Shown here: positions 11,386 to 61,510 of the stretch, piece after piece | Layout: each line of letters begins with the position of its first letter | Position numbering within the stretch: the stretch's first letter is position 1 | Assembly: GCA_024398615.1 (NCBI GenBank) | Contig: JAKSIU010000010.1 | Location: forward strand, 1-64,000 | Reading direction: 5' to 3' | Source of the DNA: Bacteroidaceae bacterium | Lineage (GTDB): Bacteria; Bacteroidota; Bacteroidia; Bacteroidales; Bacteroidaceae | DNA length: 64,000 bases | Notes under the pieces: model-generated | The model's database searches: none | What the model was told of the DNA's origin: nothing | What the model saw: only the letters and a program-made list of their open reading frames with translations | Position numbers and translations under genes: made by a program

Positions 11386-11878
11386 GGCTCACCTGAAATA
11401 GTGGCTCACCTGAAATAGTGGCTCACCCGAAAATCAGTGGGGACGAATCCGAGGCTACCCTAGGTCGGGACAATCCAGCATCCAGAAATGCATGTGGTAG
11501 GGCTTTTCATGTTGGATTGGCAAAGAATCAGCCCGTTTTGGCCATTTTCGTTGCCAATCGTGCATATTAATAGGCATTGGGAACCATTATGACTGCTGGA
11601 TTGGCAATATTACCAAACTTTGTTCCCGCGACATTTTTGTATGCTGGATGGGTGGCTGTGCGGACTTTCCGTGGAATGGCCGGTAAGCGACAAGGCCTTT
11701 CAGGCGTGAAGAAACGCGGCTGTCTGAGCGGCAAAGCCGCGAGTTCCGCGTTTCAGCCTGAAAGGCCGCAGGAGCAGGACATGGAGCGGCTGTCCGCACA
11801 GCCACCCATCCAGCATGCAAAAACTGTATTCAAAATGAGATCTGATATCAGCAATCCCCACTAAATTTCGGGTGAGCC
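11386..11878. mobile_element. Inverted-repeat-bounded non-coding element (MITE-like)
   Basis: A 23-bp sequence at 11420-11442 (begins GGCTCACCCGAAAA) recurs inverted at 11856-11878 with 21 of 23 matches. At the left end two further copies of the first 17 bp (GGCTCACCTGAAATAGT) stand in tandem at 11386 and 11403. The roughly 460-bp interior holds the large hairpin (11625-11823) and no credible gene. This looks like a non-autonomous transposable element or transposon scar; the family is not recognised. Confidence 0.5.
11625..11823. repeat. Large nested hairpin element, copy A
   Basis: It begins with CCCGCGACATTTTTG. Outer arms 11634-11664 and 11793-11823 pair over 31 bp with a single G-U. Inside are a 12-bp stem (GGCCTTTCAGGC 11694-11705 with 11756-11767), a 9-bp stem (GAAACGCGG 11711-11719 with 11746-11754) and a 5-bp hairpin GCGGC-AAA-GCCGC (11728-11740). 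Copy B at 61312-61510 has the same core and leader, but its arms have a different sequence that is also self-complementary. Open frames through it are by-products of the palindrome. Confidence 0.85.
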
Positions 11879-11975
11879 GAAATAGTATGGGGGGCAATAG
11901 ATTCCTATTCAACCGAAAATCAGTGTATGGCTGTGAATACGTAAGGGCCAAGCGCTCTGATTACAACACTTTCCT

Positions 11976-12279
11976 ATGGACGATAGGGAAGAAAGCCCTG
12001 CTGTAGGCCCGATTCCATCCCTATCATATGTGTAGTATGGCGGAATAGCGCATATCTTCATGGACGATAGGGAAGAAAGCCCTGCTTTGGGCCCGATTCC
12101 ATCCCTATCATATGTGTAGTATGGCGGAATAGCGCATATCTTCATGGACGATAGGGAAGAAAGCCCTGCTTTGGGCCCGATTCCATCCCTATCATATGTG
12201 TAGTATGGTGGAATAGCGCATTTCTGCATGGACGATAGGGAGGAAAACCATGCTACAGGACCGATTCCATCCCTATCAT
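11976..12279. repeat. 84-bp tandem hairpin array, 3.6 units
   Basis: Units start at 11976, 12060, 12144 and 12228, exactly 84 bp apart; the last is partial and diverged. In each, GATAGGGA pairs with TCCCTATC about 30 bp away, with an inner GCCC/GGGC stem in the better-kept copies. Since 84 is a multiple of three, the minus strand reads as a 28-residue repeat, but the hairpins and lack of signals argue against a gene. The remaining DNA from 12280 to 12360 shows nothing further. Confidence 0.85.
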
Positions 12280-61311: not shown

Positions 61312-61510
61312 CCCGCGACATTTTTGCATGAGTGGTGAGGGGCGGTTTGGGCGTATCGTGGAATGGCCGCAAAGCGACCAGGTTTTTCAGGCGTGAAGAA
61401 ACGCGGCTGTTTGAGCGGCGAAGCCGCGAGTTCCGCGTTTCATCCTGAAAAACCGCAGGAGCAGGCCATGGAACGTTTAGCCCAAACCGCCCCTCACCAC
61501 TCATGCAAAA
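61312..61510. repeat. Large nested hairpin element, copy B
   Basis: Starts CCCGCGACATTTTTG as copy A does. Arms 61322-61352 and 61480-61510 are a perfect 31-bp stem. The core 61353-61479 is nearly identical to that of copy A (11665-11792), but the arms differ except for the ends TTTTG.ATG. In the inner 12-bp stem two C-G pairs of copy A are T-A here, so pairing is kept. The loop is GCGGC-GAA-GCCGC. Confidence 0.87.

Follow-up and report, generated by a model that had tools for sequence, protein, structure and literature searches.

A dispersed family of nested hairpins with covarying arms in a Bacteroidaceae genome shares its tip with hairpins in distant bacteria

Two large hairpins, copies A and B, in the window (the whole 64,000-nucleotide stretch of Bacteroidaceae DNA analysed here) appear to belong to a superfamily of dispersed non-coding hairpins, in which a conserved tip is carried on stems whose two arms have been rewritten together. 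Among the explanations weighed the most likely is that they are REP/REPIN-like mobile DNA hairpins moved in trans by a protein, a reading that we hold with slightly less than even confidence. It is supported by the many copies per genome in several lineages, by a discrete copied unit in one genome, and by conservation of the tip on covarying stems. Further support comes from the enrichment of the hairpins between convergent genes and from the inverted pairs of a single polarity in Marinobacter.

Two nested hairpins in the window

Both elements lie on the forward strand and fold as nested hairpins. Copy A (11634..11823), a member of the main family described below and supported by RNA and DNA folding and by BLAST against its own genome, begins with the leader CCCGCGACATTTTTG (11625..11639), the final bases of which overlap the stem, and is followed by a right-hand repeat, CTGTATTCAAAATGAG...GTGAGCC (11824..11880), that stands beside at least 10 copies. 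Its conserved core (11670..11788) matches covariance model R1 at 137.4 bits, A being one of the 12 sequences from which the model was built, and encloses the tip motif CTGTCTGA-[GCGGC AAA GCCGC]-GAGTT (11720..11745, position counted on the sequence), the form common to relatives in other taxa. Copy B (61322..61510), supported by folding and 80% identical to A by BLAST, has the same arrangement, with the leader CCCGCGACATTTTTG at 61312..61326, the core at 61357..61475 (133.2 bits, B likewise being among the 12 model-building sequences) and the tip motif CTGTTTGA-[GCGGC GAA GCCGC]-GAGTT at 61407..61432, again counted on the sequence. The predicted RNA folds have energies of -126 kcal/mol (A) and -121 kcal/mol (B), each with a z-score of -11.9 and with none of 200 shuffles as good, and DNA folding parameters give a z-score of -11.8 for copy A. 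The positions, leaders and folding of the two hairpins in the original prediction are thus confirmed.

Alignment of the outer arms shows perfect pairing in B and pairing with a single G-T in A, and two inner stem pairs read C-G in A and T-A in B, both as predicted from the sequence. The extent of change is smaller than was claimed. Of the 34 ungapped outer-arm positions compared, the copies agree at 20, and at 10 both partners have changed with pairing kept in each copy; the remaining 4 comprise the G-T and the final 3 positions, outside the 31-position arm. The arms thus do not differ almost throughout, and the compensating pairs, put at about 20, come to about 12 (10 of 31 in the outer arm and 2 inside). 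The cores differ at 12 positions over 119 nt. Folding and alignment of the family also reveal a GGA/GGA internal loop, which we take to be the motif familiar from DNA structure work.

The surroundings of copy A contain repeats of their own. The sequence ATGGACGATAGGGAAGAAAGCCCTGCT occurs twice, about 80 nt apart, beside it (window 11978-12090), and part of the right-flank repeat, around CCCCACTAAATTTCGACTGAGCC, stands alone in the sister species G031 and G014, several of these occurrences lying no more than about 80-100 nt from where a contig begins.

A multicopy family in the same genome

BLAST against the genome of origin (72 contigs, 82% complete) recovered 21 full or near-full copies together with some fragments, among which L022, L023 and L027 keep part of the element only. 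The original prediction had seen two copies and proposed a covariance-model search; a model built from 12 cores returned 29 matches in this genome at E<=1e-3, 21 belonging to the main family and 8, sorted by eye into three families, carrying the same kind of tip on other arms.

In a set of 17 main-family copies, arms belonging to the same copy show on average 0.71 events of disagreement over about 27 bases, compared with 3.9 (5') and 4.4 (3') events between arms taken from different copies. Further copies with non-complementary arms, named in the original prediction as the finding that would speak against it, are therefore not seen among the full-length members. Taken over 45 copy pairs with a common right flank and with gaps included, the per-site difference is lowest in the core (0.08), intermediate in the arms (0.145) and highest in the right flank (0.28). 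Three copies (L010, L011 and L013) have one-base insertions or deletions matched in both arms. No inverted ends are seen by eye in the family, and the 29 matches include no inverted pair closer than 700 nt; the closest two lie on contig C6, 1.3 kb apart on the same strand.

At one further copy (L012, G000 C7:54262) the hairpin adjoins the end of a coding region, where it apparently takes the place of the stop codon found in some sister genes and adds a few residues. The idea that its leader is an inverted copy of the right flank was rejected, sister genes showing GGAT within the coding end.

Relatives share a tip on covarying stems

Within the genus 8 of 37 genomes, the genome of origin included, match the first model at E<=1e-3, three of them (G035, G003 and G018) by weak matches only. 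A second model, built from 24 members, has matches at E<=1e-4 in 16 of the 393 genomes searched in the order, taken here to be Bacteroidales, and so reaches 14 of 207 genera, again counting the genome of origin; nine candidates per genome were scored, so that copy counts are lower bounds.

The stems of the family covary. In a MAFFT alignment of 12 sequences both partners have changed at 17 of 39 pairs, and 93.3% of cells are paired, compared with 30-40% for slid partners, a comparison that favours the true over the slid pairing in that the structure was derived by folding members of the set. In the 24-member alignment, which was fitted to the model, 29 of 39 pairs are changed on both sides and 90.7% of cells are paired, against 30-39% when slid. 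The covariation score of either alignment was reached in none of 500 shuffles. When 21 order-level members were folded with 60-nt flanks most formed a long stem around the tip; L080 and L098 are among those with a different best fold.

The common feature is the tip, an internal loop (5' TGTYTGA / 3' GAGTT) that lies between variable stems and closes a short terminal hairpin, often GCGNAGC; members of the window's family have a longer tip stem, GCGGC-NNN-GCCGC. The oligonucleotide d(GCGNAGC) forms an unusually stable DNA hairpin. At 117 sites in named genomes its N is A in 52, C in 51, G in 7 and T in 7. Families whose arms are unrelated still have the tip and the internal loops in common.

In named genomes the tip pattern occurs in at least 120 stretches. 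Among the 80 matches listed of these, 42 are from Marinobacter and most others from Bacteroidota, and those listed also include single records from Oceanospirillaceae, Halanaerobium and Pacebacteria, the last a metagenome-assembled genome (MAG) that could be misbinned. In a sample of the phylum Bacteroidota the exact pattern is present in 13 of 395 genomes and a reversed control pattern in none. An earlier, narrower pattern, TGAAGAAACGCGG...CCGCGTTTCA, had no match in a scan of genome contigs, in which the wider tip pattern matched. Folding of 170-nt windows against 25 shuffles gave z < -3 at 67 of 68 Marinobacter tip sites and at 12 of 49 other named sites; with 250-nt windows 43 of 48 other named sites have at least 25 tip-spanning pairs, compared with 84 of 240 random points.

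Plasmid and phage searches gave no match. Seven viral contigs (L242, L244-L248 and L253) are alike as far as the tip TGTTTGAGCGAAGCGAGTTC and differ beyond it, as might be expected if the hairpin marked a phage junction, and six of the seven share genes that we take to resemble those of filamentous phages.

We found no description of the tip or of the family in the literature, although one may stand in subscription journals. In the accessible portions of three papers, PMC3733652 contains no mention of Marinobacter and one of Bacteroidetes, for CGTC repeats, PMC4666352 contains no Marinobacter, Bacteroid- or Flavobact- term, and PMC2267715 contains no Bacteroid-, Porphyromonas or Flavobact- term.

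Gene context, pairs and copied units

The hairpins are concentrated between convergent genes. With hairpins masked, since open reading frames otherwise run through them, with locus-edge sites omitted (8, 10 and 2) and with some sites orthologous to one another, convergent gaps make up 28 of the 60 that bear hairpins in Marinobacter and 3 of the 65 without them (p 4.5e-8); in the other named genomes the figures are 19 of 41 and 7 of 67 (p 4.5e-5). In the window's family 11 of 18 gaps are convergent (p 0.09), the background being too small for a good test. Divergent gaps are avoided in Marinobacter (p 0.0003) and not clearly elsewhere (p 0.24 and 0.47).

Neighbouring sites closer than 700 nt in Marinobacter are inverted in 17 of 17 cases, all with polarity (-,+), and similar (-,+) pairs occur in G141, G829, G325 and G201. 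Same-strand neighbours are found as well: G214 has two such sites 701 nt apart, and Flavobacterium sp. 14A (L157) has 11 same-strand hairpins arrayed in tandem, most of them 213 nt apart, with one-sided arm mismatches in several of the units. In genome G179 (L334-L336) three copies of a 367-nt unit, 97-98% identical and with the same ends, carry the hairpin between inverted ends AGGGNNTGCTGAAAAA, as if it had been captured by a MITE; the three copies show no clear target duplication.

A separate cluster in G201 (C2:303-382 kb, L107-L109) holds 12 of the 14 tip sites of that genome amid Fic, AAA/DUF234 and HTH genes and 51-nt tandem repeats. An integron-like array was considered here and set aside; a block of 2 kb, repeated at 96% identity, begins ahead of one hairpin and runs to just beyond the following one, which looks like ordinary duplication.

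DNA or RNA

The pairing could instead be selected in RNA, the elements being a structured non-coding RNA family, or a 3'-end RNA element, that spreads as a repeat. We consider this unlikely, although it is the strongest of the rival explanations and shares some of the evidence given above, since covariation with conserved internal loops between variable stems and enrichment in convergent gaps would both suit an RNA. It also draws on the mismatches that the arms tolerate. With 28 of the 117 named tip sites excluded because their arms scored poorly, isolated G-T exceeds A-C by 36 to 17 in 67 Marinobacter elements (2219 Watson-Crick pairs) and by 14 to 3 in 22 elements from other named genomes (855 Watson-Crick pairs), an excess that somewhat favours RNA, although DNA hairpins may also tolerate G-T better. 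In the window's own family the two are level, with 9 G-T and 10 A-C against 1178 Watson-Crick pairs in 21 elements. G-T pairs are moreover rare throughout, at 0.8-1.6% of arm pairs, compared with 8 of 133 (and no A-C) in a small control of six tRNAs. In tandem gaps the hairpin lies on the same strand as the genes in 26 cases and on the opposite strand in 24, a ratio that is uneven by set (12:14, 13:6 and 1:4). Both observations, that G-T is uncommon and that the hairpins in tandem gaps prefer neither strand, speak against RNA. No Rfam family accounts for the elements either: Rfam 15 found only tRNAs in the window, seven further loci gave no match at E<=0.5, and another six gave only four microRNA-hairpin matches, far below gathering scores.

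Change in place at the Marinobacter ung locus

Orthologous hairpins in Marinobacter lie between ung and the next gene, both of which we name from their translations. The query region was matched in 61 of 61 genomes, at full length in 12, and 30 loci together with 3 named ones were examined. Fifteen loci carry the tip (13 distinct sequences, two named loci duplicating others), 10 have a short gap with no hairpin, L287 and L288 hold remnants, and for L289 and L302 no right flank was obtained. In L286, L295, L298 and L300 the gap is filled instead by a hairpin of a second family, whose centre resembles CGGAGCCATGGATGGCGGAGCCGAGCGTACAGGGA and whose arms are paired but variable.

The arms of the tip-bearing hairpins change between species, and both one-sided intermediates (C-A in L276 and T-G in L279, which is the same locus as L137) and fully compensated states are present. 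The pattern fits stepwise compensation and is also compatible with template switching, which is reported in the accessible part of PMC8794818 to yield compensating changes. The statement in the original prediction that such pairs cannot arise by neutral drift is for that reason too strong; its broader alternative, that either the structure is selected or a copying mechanism restores complementarity, stands after testing.

Taken to its limit, template switching could explain the arms by mutation in the main, long palindromes correcting themselves during replication and keeping their arms paired without benefit, with the tip conserved for some unrelated reason. We regard this as quite improbable. 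The mechanism is a published one, and the one-base insertions and deletions matched in both arms are what it would produce. Mutation alone, however, leaves unexplained why the tip and internal loops are conserved across families with unrelated arms; the one-sided intermediates at the ung locus are as stepwise compensation predicts, and the arms of the window's family diverge less per site than does the right flank.

Neither the ung locus nor the comparisons around L012 yielded a clean empty site with target duplication. Some of the Marinobacter copies are orthologous between species and have therefore not freshly moved.

Search for a mobilising enzyme

The accessible text of PMC6006769 reports "atypical secondary structures" for TnpA subclass 2.6 in Bacteroidetes, which resemble the present elements as unusual hairpins copied elsewhere in the genome. 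The genome of origin has one Y1 transposase gene, with GNHLH and YIHQNP motifs of the 2.6 type. The 21 Y1 loci examined (its own and 20 others, one per genome, 9 of them from hairpin-bearing genomes) contain no model match at E<=1.

PF01797, the family of the Y1 transposase, is lacking in 12 of the 22 further order-level genomes that bear hairpins, compared with 3 of 19 picked without them; the 12 include the single-contig genome G363, and four are MAGs less than 90% complete. It is likewise absent from 7 of 15 hairpin-bearing Marinobacter genomes, including G432 with its 20 tip sites. Among the 13 Y1 genes of Marinobacter, 5 lie within about 0.7 kb of a tip, and the stretch examined around each of the other 8 has none. 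These five carry DHIH and YIH[YF]NP motifs and probably represent one orthologous locus with separate GTAG REPs. The presence of a Y1 gene between Marinobacter hairpins, taken at one stage as proof of a RAYT system, was dropped in view of the shared neighbours and the separate GTAG REPs. That the hairpin is simply the REP of a Y1 transposase (RAYT), like the structures beside subclass 2.6, is thus very doubtful, the published remark, the Y1 gene of the genome of origin and the five tip-adjacent genes being offset by the empty Y1 loci, the PF01797 gaps and the apparent orthology of the five.

All-against-all BLASTP of 1426 open reading frames within 3 kb of tips found no partner gene common to genera. 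The largest clusters cover 6 labels; one is sensor-kinase-like and two come from viral contigs only.

Discussion

Several known classes of repeat resemble these elements in part. MITEs and other long palindromic repeats such as ERIC and bcr1 are short, non-coding, multi-copy and hairpin-forming, and the G179 unit with its inverted ends is similar to them; in the window's own family, however, inverted ends are not seen by eye, and the tip is common across phyla whereas the arms are not. The attC sites of integrons are recognised by their folded structure and have sequence-variable arms; our hairpins have arms of that kind and may likewise be recognised when folded, but in them the invariant part is the tip. 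REPs that move with a RAYT (TnpA_REP), and REPINs, are the closest parallel in being dispersed intergenic hairpins with no coding capacity, and the inverted pairs of fixed polarity in Marinobacter add to the resemblance. REPs are described, in the available part of PMC3733652, as 20-40 bp long with GTAG or CGTC tags. The window element is about 190 nt (units elsewhere are longer); its stems are nested, its internal loops conserved and its tip shared. GTAG is absent from the stem foot of copies A and B, and no Y1 partner is consistently found.

On the REP/REPIN-like reading the DNA hairpin would form when the strand is single, during replication or repair, and the folded strand would be recognised and moved in trans by a protein, with the tip as the putative recognition site and single-stranded DNA, rather than RNA, as the acting form. 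Selection, perhaps with template switching as an aid, would keep the arms paired, and these may drift by compensating changes because they need only pair. The occurrence of the same tip on scattered hairpins with co-rewritten arms in distant bacteria suggests that something recognises the folded strand. Against this reading we count the PF01797 gaps in hairpin-bearing genomes, the lack of any pair closer than 700 nt in the genome of origin, and the same-strand neighbours in G214 and in the Flavobacterium array. The lack of a clean empty site, the excess of G-T over A-C outside the window's family and the orthologous Marinobacter copies also weigh against it.

A bolder form of the proposal, possible in our view although we lean against it, is that the hairpins constitute a new class of mobile DNA hairpin present at least in Bacteroidota and Gammaproteobacteria. 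The looped tip of roughly 19 nt would then serve universally as the recognition signal, on long arms that form a self-correcting stem free to be rewritten, and the whole would be moved as folded single-stranded DNA by a protein other than a RAYT.

The same tip on unrelated paired stems across phyla points to a machine that reads folded nucleic acid. The family also provides many natural replicates for separating selection on structure from correction by template switching, and its orthologous copies can be followed in place across Marinobacter species.
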